Of a stretch of DNA of 34,861 nt, positions 11,676 through 20,639 are shown one piece after another. Below the pieces are notes generated by a model. It worked only from the letters and a program-made list of their open reading frames with translations. It was not told the DNA's origin and searched no databases. Made by a program: the position numbers and the translations under genes. Position 1 is the stretch's first letter. Every line of letters starts with the position of its first letter. Source of the DNA: a bacterium (lineage in GTDB: Bacteria > Patescibacteriota > Microgenomatia > UBA1406 > GWC2-37-13); NCBI GenBank assembly GCA_021825445.1, contig JAKAHA010000010.1:1-34861 (forward strand). The letters are read 5' to 3'.

Positions 11676-11918
11676 ATGTTAATACAAACTTTATATAAAA
11701 ACGGCAACTCAATAGCAGTTACTATTCCGCATCAGTATTTATCAGAATTGAACTTAAAAGAAGGGTCTGAGGTGGTGGTGGAAAAGGAAGGTCAAGATCT
11801 ACGTATTATTGCTAAAAAGCATACACTTGCCGCAGATGTGGATCCAAAATTTATGAAAATGGTTGATGATTTCGTCAATGATCATGAAAGTGTACTTCAT
11901 GAGTTAGCTCAAAAATAA
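11676..11918 (+). CDS. AbrB/MazE-type antitoxin
   Basis: 80 residues. The N-terminal SpoVT-AbrB swapped-hairpin DNA-binding domain is clear (TLYKNGNSIAVTIPHQYLSE, then LKEGSEVVVEKEG), at about residues 4-45. The C-terminal tail (about 50-80) is acidic and helical and would wrap the toxin. The stop TAA and the next gene's ATG share one A (11918), so the two are translationally coupled. The direct repeats in its promoter are probably its own binding site. AbrB-type antitoxins paired with Doc toxins are known, though Phd-type partners are more usual. Confidence 0.88.
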   Translation: MLIQTLYKNGNSIAVTIPHQYLSELNLKEGSEVVVEKEGQDLRIIAKKHTLAADVDPKFMKMVDDFVNDHESVLHELAQK

Positions 11919-12319
11919 TGAACGATACAACATGCTATCTTTCTATTACACAGGTTTTGGCAATTCACGATCAGATGATAAAACGTTTTGGGGGATCTGC
12001 CGGAGTAAGAGATTTAGGACTTATAAAATCTGCAATTGCCAGACCTCAAGCTACTTTTGATGGAGTTGATTTATATCAGACACTATTTGATAAAGCCGCA
12101 GCTTTATTACAATCTCTTTTAAAAAATCATCCTTTTATTGACGGAAATAAGAGAACTGCCCTCTCATCAGCTGGTATATTTCTTGCCTCAAATGGATATA
12201 AACTCATGAACAGACATAAACAGGAAGTGACCTTCACGCTTGCTGTAGCTAACGATAAGTTGACACTTCAAGATATATCTAATTGGTTCAAAAAATATTC
12301 AACTAAAATATTAATTTGA
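11918..12319 (+). CDS. doc: Doc (death-on-curing) family Fic toxin
   Basis: 133 residues, the normal Doc length. The Fic-fold active-site loop HPFIDGNKRT at residues 71-80 matches the H-x-F-x-x-x-N-K-R Doc pattern. His71 is the catalytic base. The N-terminal YLSITQVLAIHDQMIKRFGG and RDLGLIKSAIARPQ are typical of Doc. Doc proteins phosphorylate elongation factor Tu and stop translation; related Fic enzymes transfer AMP. It overlaps its antitoxin gene by one base. It lies immediately outside the left end of the integrative element, so it could stabilise this region or belong to an older insertion. Confidence 0.92.
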   Translation: MNDTTCYLSITQVLAIHDQMIKRFGGSAGVRDLGLIKSAIARPQATFDGVDLYQTLFDKAAALLQSLLKNHPFIDGNKRTALSSAGIFLASNGYKLMNRHKQEVTFTLAVANDKLTLQDISNWFKKYSTKILI

Positions 12320-12344: not shown

Positions 12345-12360
12345 GGGTGACTGACGGGAT
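12345..12360. repeat. Left attachment-site repeat (copy of tRNA-His 3' end)
   Basis: GGGTGACTGACGGGAT is identical to 20285-20300, which is the 3' end of tRNA-His on the minus strand. No other part of a tRNA is present here. It marks the distal end of an integrated element. Confidence 0.75.
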
Positions 12361-12405
12361 GGTTCGGCAAGCTCACCATTTACCTGATACTCATATTCGA
12401 CAATC

Positions 12406-12678
12406 TCAGGATTTACTCAATTGTTTTAATAACTCAATATTTCCTTCTATTAAAGCATTCTTCTTTGCATGACTCCACCCTTTAAGCTGTTTTTCACGTT
12501 TTTCAGCTAATTTTCTATTTGAATATTTTTCTGTATATTTTAACCGTATCTGAGAAAACTTTTTCGTTCCAATATTATATCCAGACTTATGTGATTCTAA
12601 CCTATTTTGAATATTTGATGTTAGACCAACATAAAAAGTTTTCTCATCGCAAAGAAGAATGTAAATATGCCATTCCAT
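12406..12678 (-). CDS. GIY-YIG (URI-type) nuclease domain protein
   Basis: 90 residues. It begins MEWHIYILLCDEKTFYVGLT, the GIY-YIG motif written here as HIYIL...FYVGLT, followed by the conserved Arg in NIQNRLESHKSG and a later Glu in AEKREKQLKGW. This is the small stand-alone UvrC-intron-type endonuclease family (COG2827-like). The upstream in-frame extension is rejected because it is made of the 23-bp tandem repeats. Its cellular role is unclear; such genes are often mobile. Confidence 0.88.
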   Translation of the reverse strand: MEWHIYILLCDEKTFYVGLTSNIQNRLESHKSGYNIGTKKFSQIRLKYTEKYSNRKLAEKREKQLKGWSHAKKNALIEGNIELLKQLSKS

Positions 12679-12692
12679 AAATATATTTTTAT

Positions 12693-12814
12693 GGGTAGTA
12701 AACCCTGGAATTGATGGGTCGTAAACCCTGAAATTGATGGGTCGTAAACCCTGAAATTGATGGGTAGTAAACCCTGAAATTGATGGGTAGTAAACCCTGA
12801 GCTTGTCGAATGGG
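12693..12814. repeat. 23-bp tandem repeat array, about 4.7 copies
   Basis: Unit begins GGGTAGTAAACCCTG and ends AATTGAT; starts at 12693, 12716, 12739, 12762 and 12785. Units two and three have GTCG for GTAG. The last unit runs into a 20-bp family E repeat (12795-12814). GGGTN4AAACCC in each unit is a small dyad. It lies just upstream of the GIY-YIG gene. There are no spacers, so it is not CRISPR. Confidence 0.9.
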
Positions 12815-12851
12815 TGACTGGGCGGACTCATTTAGAACCCAGGTTAGTCAG

Positions 12852-13349
12852 TTAGCTTTTCGATAAAACAACTGATTGTTTAACTTTTAAATGGGTTTTG
12901 TCCAATAACCAATATATAAATCTTTTATAAAATGGCGACATATTTAATCTATATATATTCCCTACAGCGTCATAAGCAGCAAAATAGCTTATATTTTTAA
13001 GATCGAGATCTTTTTGTTTTGTTAGAAAATCTGCACTTTTACCCTCTTTAAGCTCTCGACTTCCATAAATCATGCTATCGGAAAAAATAAAACCTCCTTT
13101 ATTTTTTAGATAAATACCGGCAGTTTTTGTTATAGTTACCGGTCTTCGTCCTTTATTAGCAACTGTTAGTGAAGCATATGTTTCTTTTGGGTCGTATGGA
13201 TGATTTCCAATTATTTTCCAGTTCTTGGTAAAAGTTAATTTGATGTCAGCTTGATCTCTTTTGTAATTGAAGTAAGTAAATACAAGACCAGCACTTCCAG
13301 TAATGGCACCCCAAACCGCTATTAAATCTATCAAGTTTAGTTTTACCAT
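12852..13349 (-). CDS. Membrane-anchored protein, function unknown
   Basis: 165 residues. One N-terminal transmembrane helix (about 6-28, LIDLIAVWGAITGSAGLVFT), then a soluble domain with a beta-rich look (ASLTVANKGRRPVTITKTAG), similar to small Ig-like accessory domains seen beside transmembrane anchors. A C-terminal basic segment follows. I do not recognise the family. On the minus strand TATAAT lies at 13358-13363, 8 nt before the ATG, with TTCAAT 17 nt further up, supporting this start. It is divergent from the OLD nuclease with only 91 bp between starts, so the two may be a regulated pair. Confidence 0.65.
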   Translation of the reverse strand: MVKLNLIDLIAVWGAITGSAGLVFTYFNYKRDQADIKLTFTKNWKIIGNHPYDPKETYASLTVANKGRRPVTITKTAGIYLKNKGGFIFSDSMIYGSRELKEGKSADFLTKQKDLDLKNISYFAAYDAVGNIYRLNMSPFYKRFIYWLLDKTHLKVKQSVVLSKS

Positions 13350-13440
13350 TTAAAACAATTATATAAAATAAATGTGACGAATTGAAGAATTGTAAGAATC
13401 AGAGTACAATTTATCTGAATATAAAAATAAATATTAAAAT

Positions 13441-15207
13441 ATGAAGCTAATTTCATTTAGGATAAAAGGATTCAAGTCAATCATTGATACGGGTGAAAGC
13501 AGGTTATCTGAAAAAGACTCCATTACAGTATTAGCCGGCCAGAATGAAGCAGGCAAAAGTGCTGCTCTTGAGGCTTTAGAATTTTTTAAGCAAGGACCTG
13601 GGCCAGACTTTGTAAGACTTCAAAAACGGATGGATAGTAGTAATACTGAAGTGACATGTAAATTCCTATTATCTGATGAAGATATAGCCGATATAAAAAA
13701 AGGGTTCAATGATCAACGAATAGACGATTTTTTTAAATCGTCAAAAACTGTAGAAATAAGGCGAATTTGGACAGAGGGTGCAAATGCGATAGGAGAACTT
13801 ATAATTGAAGATGATTATTTCACATCATTTGAATTTAATCCTCCCACATCTCCAGAGCCAGATCCAAATGCTCATCCGGGGACAGCTGAAGCAAAACCCC
13901 CAGAAGTGACAAAAGAAAGTTTAGTTAAGATATTTAGAGAGAGAATATTAGGAAAAATACCCGTAATTACACTATATCGATACTTTACTGACTTTTTACC
14001 TTCTGATATTGAAATAACAAAAATAGCAACCAATGCGGCTGTTAAAGATTTTGAAAAAGTTTTTGACGTTAACCTAATGACAGTAGCAAGTATTTCGGAT
14101 TCAAGACAGCTTGAGGCAACTTTGGAAGATATTAGCACAAAAGCAACTGATGATTTCAATAAATCATGGTCACAGCAATTGAACCTTACTGATGATACAA
14201 AATATAAATTTGTTGTCCGAATTAACCAGCAAGAACCGCGAAAAGTAACCTTTATGATTAAAGGCACAGATAATAAGCCACTATGGCTCGAGCAAAAAAG
14301 TATGGGTTTCAGATGGTTTAGCGCATTCCATCTACGATTAAGAGCTTTAGGTGCAACGGAAAATCTTAACAATCTTATTTTGTTAGTTGATGAGCCTGGA
14401 CAAAATCTGCATGAAAAAGCACAGCTAGATGCAAAAAAAGTTCTTGAAGAACTAGCTGCAAAAGGCGCTCAGATAATTTATTCGACACATAATGCTAAGT
14501 TAATAGGTACAGAAGGAGCAGAATTCGCTCGGATTCGACTCGTATCTAATTCAAAATCAAAAGGAACTAAAATTGAAACAGTCAGTCAATTCGCTTCTAG
14601 GCCTGATAATGGTAGTATGGATGCTTTATCGCCAATAATTACAGCAATGGGAATGAGTAGCATAAGTTCTTTTGTCGACAGAGAAAGATACAATGTTGTT
14701 GTAGAAGGTATTACCGATCATTATTATCTTTCAGCATTCAGAAAATTATTAGGTAAAAACGACAAATTATATTTTGTTCCTGCATGTGGCGTGCATAATG
14801 TTCCTAATTTAGTTAGTGTTCTTATAGGATGGGGTTTTAAATATAAAGCTGTTTTTGACGATGATGCTAAAGGCGGCAGGAAGGCATATACCTTATTAAA
14901 AAAGGAGTTCTATAATAATGATGACACTCTTGCTCATGAACACATATTGAAAATAAAAGATTGTAATGGAATCGAGGATGTTTTTAATACTCAAGATTAT
15001 TATAAATACGTATTAGGACAAGCTCAACCAACCGGCGATCAAAATAGAGCTAATTCTGAAATAGCTGATGGGAGAAAAGAGATCTTAGCCAGGGGTTTTT
15101 TAGAGAAGGTTGAAAATAATGAAACCATTAACCTAAGCAGTCAAACAAAATCTAAGATAAACAGTGTTTTTCAATGGTTATATCAAAAATTCAATATAGC
15201 TACTTAA
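13441..15207 (+). CDS. OLD-family ATP-dependent nuclease (ABC ATPase plus TOPRIM)
   Basis: 588 residues. Domains in order: an SMC/RecF-like ABC ATPase with Walker A GQNEAGKS (33-40) and Walker B LILLVDEPGQNLHE (about 315-328). The His switch is STHNAKLI. Then comes a TOPRIM nuclease domain with the acidic Glu in VVVEGITDHYYLSAF (about 419-433) and the DxD equivalent in AVFDDDAKGG (about 467-476). OLD proteins cut DNA in an ATP-dependent way and act in phage exclusion; GajA of Gabija is one relative. No UvrD-like gajB follows, so this is best called a stand-alone (class 1-like) OLD nuclease. Promoter TTGAAG-16-TACAAT (-10 at 13405-13410). It is probably the defence cargo of the island. Confidence 0.88.
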   Translation: MKLISFRIKGFKSIIDTGESRLSEKDSITVLAGQNEAGKSAALEALEFFKQGPGPDFVRLQKRMDSSNTEVTCKFLLSDEDIADIKKGFNDQRIDDFFKSSKTVEIRRIWTEGANAIGELIIEDDYFTSFEFNPPTSPEPDPNAHPGTAEAKPPEVTKESLVKIFRERILGKIPVITLYRYFTDFLPSDIEITKIATNAAVKDFEKVFDVNLMTVASISDSRQLEATLEDISTKATDDFNKSWSQQLNLTDDTKYKFVVRINQQEPRKVTFMIKGTDNKPLWLEQKSMGFRWFSAFHLRLRALGATENLNNLILLVDEPGQNLHEKAQLDAKKVLEELAAKGAQIIYSTHNAKLIGTEGAEFARIRLVSNSKSKGTKIETVSQFASRPDNGSMDALSPIITAMGMSSISSFVDRERYNVVVEGITDHYYLSAFRKLLGKNDKLYFVPACGVHNVPNLVSVLIGWGFKYKAVFDDDAKGGRKAYTLLKKEFYNNDDTLAHEHILKIKDCNGIEDVFNTQDYYKYVLGQAQPTGDQNRANSEIADGRKEILARGFLEKVENNETINLSSQTKSKINSVFQWLYQKFNIAT

Positions 15208-15404
15208 GTACTTCTATATTTTTCTATTAACCGCCTCAATTCTTTAGACTTTAGCCTTTTGTCGTCAATACGGTAATTTACATAGGAAATCATCCATCTG
15301 GCGCTCTCTGGGCTCTTGTTGCCCATAATTTGGGCAATTTCGCGTAGTTTCTTGCCTTGTTGGCGAAGCTCCCACGCTTGATAATAGCGTTTTAGATTTT
15401 TCAC
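15204..15404 (-). CDS. Small helix-turn-helix protein
   Basis: 66 residues, strongly basic. RYYQAWELRQQGKKLREIAQIMG with NKSPESARWMISYVNYRI resembles a resolvase/sigma-like helix-turn-helix of the kind used to count and read short sites. It converges with the OLD nuclease and overlaps its stop by 4 bp. It could regulate the island. I do not recognise a named family. Confidence 0.6.
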   Translation of the reverse strand: MKNLKRYYQAWELRQQGKKLREIAQIMGNKSPESARWMISYVNYRIDDKRLKSKELRRLIEKYRST

Positions 15405-15413
15405 TTTATTACT

Positions 15414-15833
15414 TTAATAATATCGCCAGTTTGGAAGTAGATCCCATCGGTTATTGTCCTTATCCCAACTTCGACAAAAGACATATCTTGGTCCATCATC
15501 AATTTTGGCTGCAAAATAACAAGTTAGGTTATTAAGAATAAGATAACCACCATTATTAAAATTGATTCGGGCTTTATTATTATCCAGCAAACTTACATCT
15601 AACTGATAACAATCTTTACTTGAATAATATGGAACTTTGCAGACTTGAACACGTTTTGTTCCTTTCCAGAATGGTTTTTTCTCACTCTCGTAATATAAGC
15701 TATATATTTTATTAAATATCCACCAAATCGCAAATATAAAAATAAAGAAATAAAAAATCCTTACAATAATTGCCGATATACTTTTGAATAATAAAATCGT
15801 TGCATCTTTTATACCAACTTCTTTCGGTTTCAT
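15414..15833 (-). CDS. Single-pass membrane protein, function unknown
   Basis: 139 residues starting MKPKEVGIKDATILLFKSIS, with one strong hydrophobic helix at about 13-40 (rich in Phe and Ile) and a soluble tail of about 95 residues. The tail has four Cys (in VCKVP, DCYQL, LTCYF and VFCRS) that might form two disulfides if extracytoplasmic. I chose the ATG at 15833 rather than the codon at 15857 because GGGGAG lies 10 nt upstream of it. A structured RNA (15845-15935) forms its 5' leader. Family unknown. Confidence 0.6.
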   Translation of the reverse strand: MKPKEVGIKDATILLFKSISAIIVRIFYFFIFIFAIWWIFNKIYSLYYESEKKPFWKGTKRVQVCKVPYYSSKDCYQLDVSLLDNNKARINFNNGGYLILNNLTCYFAAKIDDGPRYVFCRSWDKDNNRWDLLPNWRYY

Positions 15834-15844
15834 ACAATAAAAAC

Positions 15845-15935
15845 TCCCCGCCAGCACGGCTTGCGCCGCACGTATCCCTTTCGAGATACGACCTTCTCAG
15901 GCTCTGACGAGGAGATTGCTCCTGAGAAGGTTTTT
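15845..15935 (-). ncRNA. Structured leader RNA with two GNRA-capped stems
   Basis: Read on the minus strand: P1 is CCTTCTCAGG (15930-15921) with CCTGAGAAGG (15901-15892), enclosing an inner GGAG-CAAT-CTCC hairpin. P2 is CGTATCTC-GAAA-GGGATACG (15890-15871), an 8-bp stem with a GAAA tetraloop. P3 is CGGC-GCAA-GCCG (15868-15857), with a GCAA tetraloop. Then GGGGAG and the start of the 15833 gene. GNRA loops occur only in this orientation, which favours a minus-strand RNA. It is much more GC-rich than its surroundings. On the plus strand P1 is followed by TTTTT and could act as a terminator. It could be a cis-regulatory leader or a small RNA of the island. No known riboswitch is recognised. Confidence 0.5.
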
Positions 15936-16071
15936 AGCCATGCTTTGTTTCCAAAGTTTAGGCTCCGAATTGTTAAACTGATTTTAATATTTTTTGTCCT
16001 GTAATACAAGTTTTTCTAGATAATTGTAAGGAAAAAGGTATAATTGGAACAAATATAAATATAAAAATATT

Positions 16072-16740
16072 ATGTTAAAAGATTTATCGAAAGAAGATTT
16101 AGATAAAGCATATTTAGTATATGTGGAGCTTTATCATCAATCGTATATTAACTTACATAAGGAACAAATAGAATATCCTTCAGACGAAGACTTAAAAGAC
16201 AAACAAACCCTAACACATAAAGATAGAAAAGAAGCTCTTTTTAAGTTTCAAGAAGAAGGTGCTATCAAAATCAATGACGAAATTGGTTATGGTCGATACA
16301 ACACTCCATATAAATGGTTTGTTGAAATAATAAATCCGAATTTTGGTCTCCTTGAAGATAAACTTAAAAAGTTATGGCTAAAACTACATGAAGACAATCT
16401 TAATGCGACTATTGGAACAAAAAGGCCATTTCGGCGAGATTGGAAGATGGAAGAAAAAAATGGTAAGGTGATCGCAATTTATAATAATAGGGATTACATA
16501 TTATTAGACCATATTGGCAGTAAAAGACATAAGTATTTAAAATTCTTATACGATAATCCTGGATACCATTCTTATGGAGAAATCTTTTTAGCCATAAATA
16601 ATAAATACCCAGAATTCAAAAAAAGCCCTGCCCATCATAAATTAAAAAGAAACCTAGAGTTGCTTTTTGAAACCTTTAAAGAGAAAAAATATAGTTTCAT
16701 TAACTATAAAAAAGAACCCGCAGGTTTTTCTTTAGAGTAA
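16072..16740 (+). CDS. Hypothetical protein of the integrative element
   Basis: 222 residues, soluble and highly charged. The N-terminal part (about 5-60) is helical. The C-terminal half has a tail (NPGYHSYGEIFLAINNKYPE, about 163-182, followed by KLKRNLELLFE) that looks like a winged-helix DNA-binding module. This is fold-level inference only. TATAAT at 16039-16044 is 27 nt before the ATG. It is the first gene of the plus-strand block ending in the recombinase. I do not recognise the family. Confidence 0.6.
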   Translation: MLKDLSKEDLDKAYLVYVELYHQSYINLHKEQIEYPSDEDLKDKQTLTHKDRKEALFKFQEEGAIKINDEIGYGRYNTPYKWFVEIINPNFGLLEDKLKKLWLKLHEDNLNATIGTKRPFRRDWKMEEKNGKVIAIYNNRDYILLDHIGSKRHKYLKFLYDNPGYHSYGEIFLAINNKYPEFKKSPAHHKLKRNLELLFETFKEKKYSFINYKKEPAGFSLE

Positions 16741-16830
16741 ACTCCTACTTTTTCTACCTAAATTCTACCTTTCTTCGTTCTTGTAAGGCTCTAAATAAGG
16801 CTTAATATAGAAATAGAATTGTTTATAAAT

Positions 16831-17094
16831 ATGAAAAAACCGGATAAATATTATCGCTTAACTTCTTTTTACATAGCCGCTTTTTTACTAGCGAAAGGTT
16901 ATGATCTTGTCGGTGTCGAACCAACTGAACAACCAAGACGTTTTCAATTTGTATTTATTGATACTCCAACAAGAGCAAAGTTACTTCAGGTTTTTAACTT
17001 CGGAAGTGATAATGTCGATGAAGTAATGTGCGATGCGAGAAAGCTTGTAGCAGCAATAAAAACGTTAAAAGACAAGTTGTACCAGAGCAAATAA
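16831..17094 (+). CDS. DUF5659-like small protein
   Basis: 87 residues. YRLTSFYIAAFLLAKGYDLV, then FQFVFIDTPTRAKLLQVF, then ARKLVAAIKTLKDKLY follow the layout of DUF5659 proteins as I remember it: hydrophobic start with AAFLL.KG, central VFxD, C-terminal LKD.LY. These are common in mobile regions of Patescibacteria and Firmicutes; the function is unknown. The ATG at 16831 is preferred to the TTG at 16819. It ends one base before the next gene, so they form an operon. Confidence 0.65.
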   Translation: MKKPDKYYRLTSFYIAAFLLAKGYDLVGVEPTEQPRRFQFVFIDTPTRAKLLQVFNFGSDNVDEVMCDARKLVAAIKTLKDKLYQSK

Positions 17095-17095
17095 T

Positions 17096-17308
17096 ATGCT
17101 TACGAAAGAAGATATAGAAGAATACCAACAAATATACAAGAAAGTTTATGGAGAAGAAATTTCCTTTGAAGAGGCAATGGTACAAGGAAGAAGACTATTG
17201 AATTTCTTCAAATTGATCACGAAACAACCAGTTATAAATTTAAACAACTATAAATATGGCCAAAGCTCGAATGCTTCACGGATCAATCTCAAGATCGATA
17301 CAAGTTAA
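17096..17308 (+). CDS. Small acidic protein of the integrative element
   Basis: 70 residues. LTKEDIEEYQQIYKKVYGEE with ISFEEAMVQGRRLLNFFKLI forms a compact helical motif that I have seen beside DUF5659 genes in Patescibacteria mobile regions. The function is unknown. The ATG is one base after the previous stop. The 3' 53 bp overlap the start of the replication protein in another frame, so the last 17 residues are probably not conserved. Confidence 0.55.
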   Translation: MLTKEDIEEYQQIYKKVYGEEISFEEAMVQGRRLLNFFKLITKQPVINLNNYKYGQSSNASRINLKIDTS

Positions 17309-17984
17309 TAAGTTATGCTTACCAGCACGTTTGCTTTTTTCTTGGATGATCGCTCATGCTGATGATGAAGGTCGTATTAAAGGAGATCCAGACTATATTA
17401 GAGCAACAGTGGTTCCTATGACAAAATGGTCCTCAAATAATATCAAAAACTATCTCGAACAAATAAGGGAAATCGGTCTTATTTATTATTGGACCGATAA
17501 TGACGAGTGGTTCGTGGAATTTGTGAAATGGAGAGATTATCAATCTATTAAGAGCGACAGATTTAAACCGTCAAAATTACCCTCATTCAATAAAGAAATT
17601 GGAAACAAAATGGATACAGCGCGGATACAAAATATTGACAAGCTGTTTCCACAAGCGAATAAAGTTCAAACTAAAGAAAAAAAGTCAAATAGCGATGAAT
17701 ATAATCCTTTCGCTGATTTAAATATTCGTGATGAGGAGGATATAAACCCTAATACTTATAAGCCTAAAAACATAGGAGAATCATCTGCTCTTATAGCTTT
17801 CAAGCAATTAGAACCAGCTAACTTTAAGGCTTTCCGAACAACTTACCTTGCCGCTGCAAAAAAAGGATTACCTTCAGGATTATTTTTTAGATTTACAAGT
17901 GAGATTAAACAGGATGTTTCCATAAAGAATCCAGGTGCAGTATTTAATAAGAAAGTTCAGGAGTATTTTTCACGTCTGAAATAA
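17256..17984 (+). CDS. DnaD-like phage/plasmid replication protein
   Basis: 242 residues. The N-terminal winged-helix (about 1-115) has the characteristic opening MAKARMLHGSISRSIQVNKL, then ARLLFSWMIAHADDEGRIKG with YIRATVVP and WRDYQSI, typical of phage replisome organiser / DnaD-type N-terminal domains. A linker rich in polar residues and a C-terminal helical part follow. Such proteins bind an origin and recruit the host helicase loader. The presence of a replication gene implies the element replicates as a circle after excision. It overlaps the preceding small ORF by 53 bp. Confidence 0.72.
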   Translation: MAKARMLHGSISRSIQVNKLCLPARLLFSWMIAHADDEGRIKGDPDYIRATVVPMTKWSSNNIKNYLEQIREIGLIYYWTDNDEWFVEFVKWRDYQSIKSDRFKPSKLPSFNKEIGNKMDTARIQNIDKLFPQANKVQTKEKKSNSDEYNPFADLNIRDEEDINPNTYKPKNIGESSALIAFKQLEPANFKAFRTTYLAAAKKGLPSGLFFRFTSEIKQDVSIKNPGAVFNKKVQEYFSRLK

Positions 17985-18013
17985 AATATGACATTTAATA
18001 AGTCGAATCCTTA

Positions 18014-18601
18014 ATGATTTCGATAAAAAATATGGGAAGACAATATTATTCTTACAGACCGGTAGCCGAGAATTATAAAAAAATAAGAATATCTTCTTTA
18101 AAAAGGGATGGATATCTTGCTCAGTGGTATAGCGGCATTATCAGTTGGGGTTGTGGTCCAGGCGAATATAAAGAAAGCATAAAGATAGAATGCTCTATTA
18201 ACCCTATGTATCCAAATATAAAGTTTATTTATAATCAGATAAGTTATCTTGTTAGTCTTACTACAACGCCTTGTCATTTTGGTGGTAAAAGATATTGGTT
18301 TGTATGTCCTTTGACTATTAACGGTAGGGACTGCGGAAAAAGAGTTGGCGTACTTTATAAGGGAAATGATTATTTCGGTTGTCGACACTGTTTTAATTTG
18401 ACCTACCAATCAAGGAGGGATAATCCTACAGTTAAAGCTGTGTTGTTTCTCATTGATTATGAGAAAAATATTGAAAAATTAACCACAAAATTAAAACGAT
18501 ATTTTTATAAAGGAAAAGCAACAAGAAAACTCATGACACTTAATAAGATTGAACACAAAGTATTAAAAGCATATAAAGTTGTTAAGACGTTTAATTCTTG
18601 A
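18014..18601 (+). CDS. Zinc-ribbon protein of unknown function
   Basis: 195 residues. The central part has TTPCHFGGKRYWFVCP, DCGKRVGVLY and FGCRHCFNLTYQSRR. Cys106, Cys117, Cys124, Cys140 and Cys143 (approximate positions) can form a treble-clef or zinc-ribbon site. This recognisable family of hypothetical proteins is common in mobile elements and always carries the FxCxxCxxLTYxSxR signature. A role in DNA binding is likely but unproven. An alternative start is the ATG at 18032 (MGRQYYSY). It overlaps the upstream end of the recombinase ORF region by a few bases. Confidence 0.7.
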   Translation: MISIKNMGRQYYSYRPVAENYKKIRISSLKRDGYLAQWYSGIISWGCGPGEYKESIKIECSINPMYPNIKFIYNQISYLVSLTTTPCHFGGKRYWFVCPLTINGRDCGKRVGVLYKGNDYFGCRHCFNLTYQSRRDNPTVKAVLFLIDYEKNIEKLTTKLKRYFYKGKATRKLMTLNKIEHKVLKAYKVVKTFNS

Positions 18602-18623
18602 CATCGTTTATAAAGGGATTATC

Positions 18624-20294
18624 ATGGATGTAAGTATAAAAATAAATATGGATAGATATATTTTCTATAAACGCAAGTCGTCTGATTCCGAGGACCGGCA
18701 AATCTTAAGTTTGGAATCACAAGATAGGACAATTAAGGAAACTACTACCGGCTTTAATGGTTTTAAGATAATATCCGATTACGAAGAATCCAAATCGGCT
18801 AAAGCTCCCGGACGACCAAAGTTTAACGAGATGTGTGAAAAGCTGGAAAGAGGCCTAGCAAACTACATTATCTGTTGGCAATTAAACCGGTTGGCAAGAA
18901 ATCCTGTCGACGGCGGTCGGATAATTTGGTTGGTTCAAAATTACGGAGTAAAAATCGTGACTCCTTCAAAAACCTATGGTATTGATGACATACTTTTAAT
19001 GTATGTTGAGTTTGCCATGAGTAATCAGTTTATTAACGATTTGAAAAAATCGACAACCAGGGGTTTAAACGATAAACTTCATGCTGGTATTGCTCCAATC
19101 AGGGCGCCTATAGGATATTACAACGATGTTACTAAAAAACAAGGATTAAGGGATATTTTAGTCGATGATTTACGTTTTCCTCTTGTTAGAAAAATGTGGG
19201 ATTTATTTTTATCGGGCAATTATTCCGTACCGAGAATTTTAGATATGGCCACCAACCAATGGGGATTGAGGCAAAGAAATGGTCGTCCATTTTCACGGAC
19301 TCAAGCATTTAGACTCTTCAGAAACGTCTTTTATACCGGAAAGTATGAGTATAAGGGAGAAATCCATATAGGCGTCCACCAACCAATGATCACGATTGAC
19401 GAATATGATAAAGCCCAAAAAATATTAGGTAATAATGGTGGTTTTAGGCTTTCCAAACATACTTTTGCTTTCAATAATAAGATTATTCACTGTACTTGTG
19501 GGTCAGGCGTTACTGCTCATGAAAGATATAGAAAAGTGTGTTCAAAGTGTCATCATAAATATAATGCTGTAATAAATAGCCTATGTCCAAAATGTAAAAC
19601 ACCTGCACCGGAAGAAACATGGTATGGTTGCCTATACCATTGCACGAGAAAAAAGAACTCAAAGTGTACACAGCCATCAGTAAAATTGAAAGATTTAGAA
19701 GAACAATTTGACTATTATATTTCATCGCTCACTCTACCCAGTGAGTTTATAGATTGGGTATTGGTAAGGCTACGGAAGGCTCATGAGGAAGAAAGTCGAA
19801 GCCGAGATACGATCAATATCAATTTACAGGCAACACTCAACGCAACTACCCGCAAATTAGACAATCTTTTGTCCAAATATCTCAGTGAGGAAAATAAAAC
19901 AGGCGAAATAATAAGCGATGAAGAGTATAAAAGACAAAAATGGTTATTGGCCGATCAGAAAACGAAGATGGAAGAATCTTTAAAAGGATTTAGTAAGAGA
20001 CAGGATGATTGGCTGACTATCGCCGAAAAAGCCTTGGATTTTGCTCGTACAGCCCAAGAAAAGTTTAAAACGGCCAGTAAAGAAGAGAAACGGGAGATGG
20101 TTTTATCTTTTGGATTGAACCTGACTTTGGAGAATAGAAAATTATATCTTGACCTACTAAAACCATTCGGGAAGATAAAAGAAGCGGCTGATAGACTAAG
20201 AGATCCTTCAGAAAAGATTGAACCCGTACAACGGATAGACACAAAGGGCCAAACCTTCTATTTTGACTCTGCGAATCCCATTTGGGGTGACTGA
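18624..20294 (+). CDS. Large serine recombinase (site-specific integrase)
   Basis: 556 residues. Resolvase catalytic domain (about 10-150): FYKRKSSDSEDRQILSLESQ with the nucleophile Ser19 or Ser20, then WQLNRLARNPVDGGRI with the catalytic Arg. A recombinase (DNA-binding) domain spans about 170-290 (GLNDKLHAGIAPIRAPIGYY onward). A zinc-binding domain has Cys pairs HCTCGSG, CSKCHHK, CPKCKTP and CLYHC. A long coiled coil follows (about 385-470). Start: ATG 18624 preceded by AAAGGG; the TTG at 18579 is rejected. The final residues IWGD and the stop TGA are encoded inside tRNA-His (antisense), so the gene reaches into the attachment core. It presumably integrates and excises the 12345-20300 element. 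Confidence 0.9.
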   Translation: MDVSIKINMDRYIFYKRKSSDSEDRQILSLESQDRTIKETTTGFNGFKIISDYEESKSAKAPGRPKFNEMCEKLERGLANYIICWQLNRLARNPVDGGRIIWLVQNYGVKIVTPSKTYGIDDILLMYVEFAMSNQFINDLKKSTTRGLNDKLHAGIAPIRAPIGYYNDVTKKQGLRDILVDDLRFPLVRKMWDLFLSGNYSVPRILDMATNQWGLRQRNGRPFSRTQAFRLFRNVFYTGKYEYKGEIHIGVHQPMITIDEYDKAQKILGNNGGFRLSKHTFAFNNKIIHCTCGSGVTAHERYRKVCSKCHHKYNAVINSLCPKCKTPAPEETWYGCLYHCTRKKNSKCTQPSVKLKDLEEQFDYYISSLTLPSEFIDWVLVRLRKAHEEESRSRDTININLQATLNATTRKLDNLLSKYLSEENKTGEIISDEEYKRQKWLLADQKTKMEESLKGFSKRQDDWLTIAEKALDFARTAQEKFKTASKEEKREMVLSFGLNLTLENRKLYLDLLKPFGKIKEAADRLRDPSEKIEPVQRIDTKGQTFYFDSANPIWGD

Positions 20295-20358
20295 CGGGAT
20301 TTGAACCCGCAACATTCGCCTCCACAGGGCGACGCTCTACCGTTGAGCTACAATCACC
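20283..20358 (-). tRNA. tRNA-His (GUG)
   Basis: Cloverleaf with anticodon loop CUGUGGA (GTG) on a TCGCC/GGCGA stem, D-arm GCTC/GAGC and T-arm GCGGG/CCCGT. The extra G at -1 opposite C73, diagnostic of tRNA-His, is encoded, and the CCA end is encoded (20283-20285). Its 3' end is the attachment site of the integrative element and is duplicated at 12345-12360. Confidence 0.95.
20285..20300. repeat. Right attachment-site repeat
   Basis: GGGTGACTGACGGGAT inside tRNA-His, identical to 12345-12360. It also contains the stop codon of the recombinase gene (20292-20294). Confidence 0.75.
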
Positions 20359-20418
20359 AGTGTCAATATTATAAACTATAAATAACATTTAATCAGCCTC
20401 ATTATTTGCTTATAAAAC

Positions 20419-20488
20419 GTAGTGGAACGATTCATCGTTCCATAATTTATTCAATTGAATATTATGGTGTGATAAATCACACTACTAC
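20419..20488. repeat. Palindromic repeat family B, copy 3 (full length)
   Basis: About 70 bp: GGAACGATTCATCGTTCC hairpin, AT spacer, GTGTGATAAATCACAC hairpin, framed by GTAGTGG and CACTACTAC. It lies between tRNA-His and tRNA-Thr; nothing else is seen in 20359-20564. Confidence 0.88.
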
Positions 20489-20564
20489 TATAAAACATAA
20501 CAATATTTTTAAACGAAAAATAACAATCTGAATATCATTGAGCTTTGTTATAATATCTAGGATT

Positions 20565-20639
20565 GCCCTGATAGTTTAGTGGTAAAACAAACCCTTGGTA
20601 AGGGTTAGACTGTGAGTCCGATTCTCACTCAGGGCTCCA
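20565..20639 (+). tRNA. tRNA-Thr (GGU)
   Basis: Acceptor GCCCTGA/TCAGGGC, D-arm with AGTGGTAAAAC, anticodon stem AACCC/GGGTT with loop TTGGTAA (anticodon GGT), T-arm GTGAG/CTCAC, encoded CCA at 20637-20639. TATAAT at 20549-20554 lies just upstream as a promoter. Confidence 0.95.

Follow-up and report, generated by a model that had tools for sequence, protein, structure and literature searches.

Serine integrases are prime tools for the insertion of large DNA, and how their target specificity evolves is a standing question. To our knowledge, the targets of the large serine integrases of phages (SPbeta, TP901-1, Bxb1, phiC31 type) are not tRNA genes. According to Islander, only tyrosine integrases are known to target tRNA genes (PMC4383910), and no later contradiction was found in the open-access literature. 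The text available for M. abscessus places 16 of 23 tyrosine-integrase sites in overlap with tRNA or tmRNA genes and reports no serine site at either (PMC10654092); the available part of the TIGER/Islander 2025 work does not split sites by integrase type. A search of the open-access literature turned up neither serine integrases that target tRNA genes nor elements of this kind in Patescibacteria.

Like islands of the Islander class (PMC4383910), the element described here occupies the 3' end of a tRNA gene, has a restored tRNA, and holds a tRNA fragment at its far end; those islands carry a tyrosine integrase, whereas this one carries an unrelated serine recombinase. Like the streptococcal ICEs and IMEs in rumA, it has its att site in the 3' part of a serine integrase gene, so that integration joins the integrase end to the target gene. 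The rumA elements alter a protein-gene target, and their integrase C-terminus differs between the integrated and excised forms (PMC4701971); here, in contrast, a tRNA gene is targeted and regains its end. Resolvase and recombinase domains are shared with the phage enzymes, as may be the cysteine-rich, probably coiled-coil C-terminal region that follows them, but the closest phage records are about 19-28% identical to this recombinase among the matches listed.

The window (the whole stretch of DNA that was analysed) comprises 34,861 nucleotides of contig JAKAHA010000010.1, from a member of the Patescibacteriota. We read positions 12345-20300, with a probability of about 0.9, as a 7.9-kb integrative element put into the 3' end of tRNA-His by its own large serine recombinase (LSR; Table 1). 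An earlier note on this DNA had proposed such an element, framed by a 16-bp copy of the tRNA 3' end, and the proposal holds in all its points to within one base: both copies of the 16-mer GGGTGACTGACGGGAT are exact. Shuffled windows yield an expected 0.06 matches to it with three mismatches allowed. Across the 1.02-Mb genome, with up to two mismatches, it occurs only at the two element ends and in a second tRNA-His gene (one mismatch); the exact copies number two, both of them element ends. The tRNA-His gene is intact, as the earlier note had said (Rfam score, 69.2 bits), and spans 20283-20357, against the 20283-20358 given there. Its strand is the minus strand, which turns the 3' end toward the recombinase.

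Table 1. Features of the integrative element, in window coordinates
Feature	Coordinates	Strand	Basis
Distal 16-bp core copy, outer element boundary	12345..12360	+	exact match to 20285-20300
GIY-YIG endonuclease-like protein, ORF extended via short repeats	12406..12831	-	PF01541 1.6e-14
165-aa protein	12852..13349	-	no family above cut-off (Pfam, PHROGs, NCBIfam, PADLOC)
Putative OLD-family ATPase-TOPRIM nuclease, probable anti-phage cargo	13441..15207	+	AAA_15, PADLOC Old
Small protein, N-terminal half hydrophobic (inspection)	15414..15857	-	no curated family (Pfam, PHROGs, NCBIfam)
LOOT RNA (RF03000), divergent from integrase module	15855..15964	-	81.8 bits, E 4e-14
222-aa protein	16072..16740	+	no family in Pfam, PHROGs, NCBIfam
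DUF5659 small protein, part of DUF5659-Rep-integrase module	16819..17094	+	PF18903 1.4e-9
Replication initiation protein (Rep)	17256..17984	+	phrog_1408 5e-10; 44-61% identical homologues
195-aa protein, cysteine motifs	18014..18601	+	no family in Pfam, PHROGs, NCBIfam
Large serine recombinase, 548 aa, likely start ATG 18648, stop in tRNA core	18648..20294	+	PF00239, PF07508, phrog_95
tRNA-His(GTG), restored target; element side probably supplies 3' end and CCA	20283..20357	-	
Integrase-proximal 16-bp core copy, within tRNA and integrase gene	20285..20300	+	

The recombinase has an N-terminal resolvase catalytic domain (PF00239, 3e-15, 56.8 bits) followed by the PF07508 Recombinase domain (6e-8, 33.4 bits), the arrangement that defines a large serine recombinase; both matches lie above the Pfam cut-off, and the protein matches the phrog_95 integrase at 1e-45. 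Its C-terminal region, on inspection, shows paired cysteines and an extended charged segment that looks helical, with no PF13408 match. (In the subclade of this integrase, including L004 and L006, the zinc ribbon at about residues 285-345 seems to hold a second, nested CxxC...CxxC ribbon, a pattern that matches eight of the 77 tRNA-class proteins described below.) The ORF coordinates bear out that the stop codon, TGA 20292-20294, lies inside both the tRNA gene and the core repeat. Related recombinases at tRNA-His, which the earlier note had proposed to look for, exist in three other elements. A 70% identical homologue from Roizmanbacteria (L024) has the same TGA in tRNA-His, in a frame broken into two ORFs; a 60% identical one from another MAG (L025) also has this TGA inside tRNA-His; and a 35% identical integrase (L233) is likewise in tRNA-His. 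No match to the window cargo was found in L024, whose gene content is quite different, or in L025, whose record holds little beyond the integrase; at the other end of the L024 element there is no second core copy with two or fewer mismatches.

The left repeat would be the original chromosomal end of tRNA-His. It is preceded by T, as is the GGG of native tRNA-His ends in five nearby relatives (L031-L034, L036), whereas the integrase-side flank, TTTGGGG, is common to the tRNA-His elements of the window, L024, and L025. This points to an encoded CCA supplied by the element, although the flanks are supporting rather than diagnostic evidence because native tRNA-His ends vary. Just outside the left repeat, at 11676-12319, lie genes for a MazE-like antitoxin and a Doc-type Fic toxin; within the element, units of about 27 bp (GGGTCGTAAACCCTGAAATTGAT...) are repeated in tandem at 12690-12815. 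These units lie upstream of the GIY-YIG reading frame, which takes them in.

An unoccupied site, another check that had been suggested, is present in a relative. Genome G015 (L066) has the nad genes, which precede the element in the window, 1.1 kb from tRNA-His with no element between, and beyond tRNA-His come tRNA-Thr and dnaB, the order found in the window. The flanking nad genes are 73-78% identical between the two genomes; over the 2.3 kb to the left of the repeat, the two differ. Among 36 other genomes searched, mostly draft assemblies like the other genomes compared, the 16-mer is single-copy in all 10 relatives that carry it; the window genome alone has two copies. Relatives that keep both 16-mers, which would have spoken against integration, are thus absent from these 10. 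Relative to dnaB, the divergent tRNA-His/tRNA-Thr pair (window 20283-20639) is flipped in G014 and G008 (L067, L068), and tRNA-His is likewise reversed in G016 and G017. Genome G008 also holds another recombinase fragment, whose end lies in tRNA-Thr.

The same arrangement recurs across Patescibacteria. We assembled 134 LSRs from this phylum: homologues from 57 relatives, a phylum draw of those among the matches listed for PF07508 in 287 genomes, and a few fetched otherwise. The reading frame enters the 3' end of an opposite-strand tRNA or tmRNA gene in 77 of them, and the targets comprise 19 tRNA isotypes plus tmRNA. ARAGORN calls identify 73 of these targets; the rest were recognized by inspection (the intron-split L114 and L115, the truncated L005, and the broken gene of L024). 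The called targets are Asn (13), Pro (8), Ser and Gln (6 each), Val, Glu, Lys, Thr, and Leu (4 each), Gly, Trp, and His (3 each), tmRNA, Ile, and Phe (2 each), and Tyr, Cys, Arg, Met, and Ala (once each). By chance, about 1% would lie next to a tRNA gene. A clade of shorter recombinases serves as an internal control: none of its 22 members is at a tRNA, and the contrast in tRNA use rests on this clade within Patescibacteria together with the literature. The remaining LSRs end in the start of ychF (7) or elsewhere (21, some with damaged tRNA ends, such as L155 and L113), run off contigs (3), or are short (4). By source, tRNA-ending LSRs make up 48 of 53 among relatives and, with the short clade excluded, 29 of 52 usable ones in the phylum draw, among the matches listed. 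The pairing of a serine recombinase with a tRNA, which the earlier note had called unusual, is so by published knowledge (Islander, PMC4383910) but not in this phylum.

Orientation at the 77 loci is always convergent, with the recombinase 3' end against the tRNA 3' end. Every stop codon in the 73 ARAGORN cases has reached or passed the tRNA 3' end, at depths of 2 to 243 nt, and none comes before it; attP would therefore overlap the LSR coding end. Judged from these overlaps, the LSRs of Patescibacteria appear commonly to use tRNA and tmRNA 3' ends as attB, with attP in their own coding end. A stop beyond the core should give the integrated and excised states different C-termini, as in the rumA elements (PMC4701971). 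Several of the target tRNAs contain a group I intron or other insert (L112, L114, L236, and L152, with L115 by inspection), and the LSR still abuts the tRNA 3' end. In the ychF group (L176, L204, L083, L089, L092, L094, and L096, plus L279, L283, and L286), the LSR frame ends in the 5' end of this GTPase gene; one member comes from the genome of the window itself (G000 contig 18).

Where distal repeats were found, the shared core lies in the last 2-20 nt or so of the tRNA gene. Significant repeats of the tRNA 3' end accompany L183 (tRNA-Lys, 21 bp) and L165 (tRNA-Asn, 13 bp); that of L131 (tRNA-Ser) is significant also, but may be a second tRNA-Ser gene, and the 10-bp tRNA-His match of L209 is by itself not significant. 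Within 15 kb, most other tRNA-class elements have no distal repeat that exceeds shuffles, and short cores or more distant ends are the probable cause; the outer ends and cores of elements lacking a significant repeat are thus putative. A tandem remnant at L169 is informative: its integrase end keeps 98% identity as far as GGCTCCCCC of tRNA-Asn and diverges from there. The exchange is thereby placed among the first 10 nt at the 3' end of this tRNA.

Target choice follows descent. On an integrase tree built without the tRNA-encoded tail, target isotype requires 43 changes, against 57-62 with shuffled labels, and tRNA versus other targets requires 15, against 33-44. Targets are thus clade-specific, yet close relatives switch tRNA: the recombinases of L122 (tRNA-Cys) and L125 (tmRNA) are 75% identical, and those of L124 (tRNA-Glu) and L126 (tRNA-Lys) 80% identical.

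The remaining genes of the window element suggest its way of life. The earlier note had listed a replication protein, an OLD nuclease, and no capsid or conjugation genes. The replication protein is supported with moderate strength by its phrog_1408 match; the OLD-family assignment is supported by the ATPase (AAA_15, 2e-19) and PADLOC Old (6e-25) matches, whereas the TOPRIM match (E 0.0018) falls below the Pfam cut-off. Among the element proteins scanned, Pfam, PHROGs, and NCBIfam disclosed no relaxase, coupling protein, or T4SS gene, and Pfam and PHROGs no capsid, terminase, portal, tail, or packaging gene; nor did PADLOC disclose a capsid, terminase, relaxase, or T4SS gene. Rep relatives occur in 8 of 281 genomes, the window's own included. 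Well-matched copies lie directly upstream of integrases that end in tRNA-Asn (L161 and L232), tRNA-Gln (L231), and tRNA-His (L233); in three of these (L161, L231, and L232), as in the window, Rep comes after a DUF5659-like protein. Homologues of the 195-aa protein are found by tblastn at other LSR loci (L173, L170, and L154). The L161 element has a gene for a restriction enzyme subunit and methyltransferase-like genes; together with the OLD-family nuclease of the window, these make a defence role for the cargo plausible.

The element also encodes a LOOT RNA, which the earlier note overlooked. The match spans the full RF03000 model, well above the curated cut-off of 46.4 bits, and here LOOT RNA is linked to LSR elements. 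We know of no function for LOOT RNA. Searched for across the class, it turned up in 38 of 281 genomes, with three copies in the window genome. The loci concerned are the window, L271-L290, and L152. An LSR with a usable frame lies within 10 kb at 18 of 21 flanked loci, one of which (L152) was chosen for its integrase and so is not independent. LOOT is always 5' of the LSR, at 0.6-4.9 kb (18 of 18), and on the opposite strand in 15 of 18; 11 of these 18 LSRs end in tRNAs and three in ychF. LOOT RNA thus seems to be a regular component of these elements, an association for which no description was found in the open-access literature.

These features suggest a model for integration at tRNA-His. 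The recombinase gene would have the attP site at its 3' end, and this site would carry the end of the tRNA gene, including CCA; attP would recombine with the chromosomal tRNA 3' end (attB), with the crossover inside the shared 16 bp. (A search for dyad symmetry around the core singled out no crossover dinucleotide.) Because attP carries a tRNA end, recombination would restore a working tRNA, keep the LSR gene adjacent to it, and displace the original end to 12345. Because the TGA lies within the core, the LSR protein would be identical whether the element is integrated or excised. The predicted excised circle is 7,940 bp. The direction of the reaction, the circular form, and the control of excision are presumed. 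With its DUF5659-Rep-LSR module, LOOT RNA, and OLD-family nuclease, the element is best seen as small, replicating, non-conjugative, and defence-carrying.

Other explanations deserve consideration. The two 16-mers might be a coincidence or a dispersed repeat with no tie to integration, and the left copy is indeed followed by a short hairpin-like repeat (GGTTCGGCAAGCTCACC) resembling a dispersed intergenic repeat. This is scarcely credible, given an expected number of matches far below one per window, exact copies confined to the element ends, single copies in relatives, and no further copies away from tRNA-His. Alternatively, the tRNA fragment might be the trace of an older tyrosine-integrase element, with the serine recombinase a passenger that arrived later and lies beside the tRNA by chance. 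Tyrosine integrases are the known users of tRNA genes (Islander, PMC4383910), and islands commonly accumulate at a single tRNA; against this stand the lack of a tyrosine recombinase among the element proteins (Pfam, PHROGs, NCBIfam), the recurrence of the overlap in 77 elements with 20 kinds of target, always 3' end to 3' end, and the tracking of target isotype with the recombinase tree. We regard such a passenger as very improbable.

Unlikely too, though worth keeping in mind, is a temperate-phage remnant or satellite that kept integrase, Rep, and cargo and is packaged by a helper phage. A Rep-integrase module without capsid genes would fit, Rep matches phage replication initiation families, and LOOT RNA and nuclease cargo are as compatible with a satellite as with an element of plasmid type. 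But no capsid, terminase, or packaging gene was found in the element, and the recombinase, with its distant phage relatives, has no relative in IMG/VR. Moreover, a satellite would alter the mode of transfer and leave the integration mechanism as it is.

Insertion by the element's own LSR thus remains our reading of the window. For the phylum, we think it likely that Patescibacteria harbor a diverse set of LSRs specialised on the 3' ends of tRNA and tmRNA genes of most isotypes, with attP fused to the coding end and repeated target switching; some of the elements share DUF5659-Rep, and LOOT RNA is frequent. The rule that only tyrosine integrases use tRNA genes, relied on by island finders such as Islander, is thereby removed; under it, such elements of Patescibacteria would escape detection. 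The link to LOOT RNA gives an orphan RNA a context, that of integrative elements. Moreover, related enzymes on about 20 tRNA and tmRNA targets, with 75-80% identical pairs that differ in target, make the evolution of specificity directly testable.
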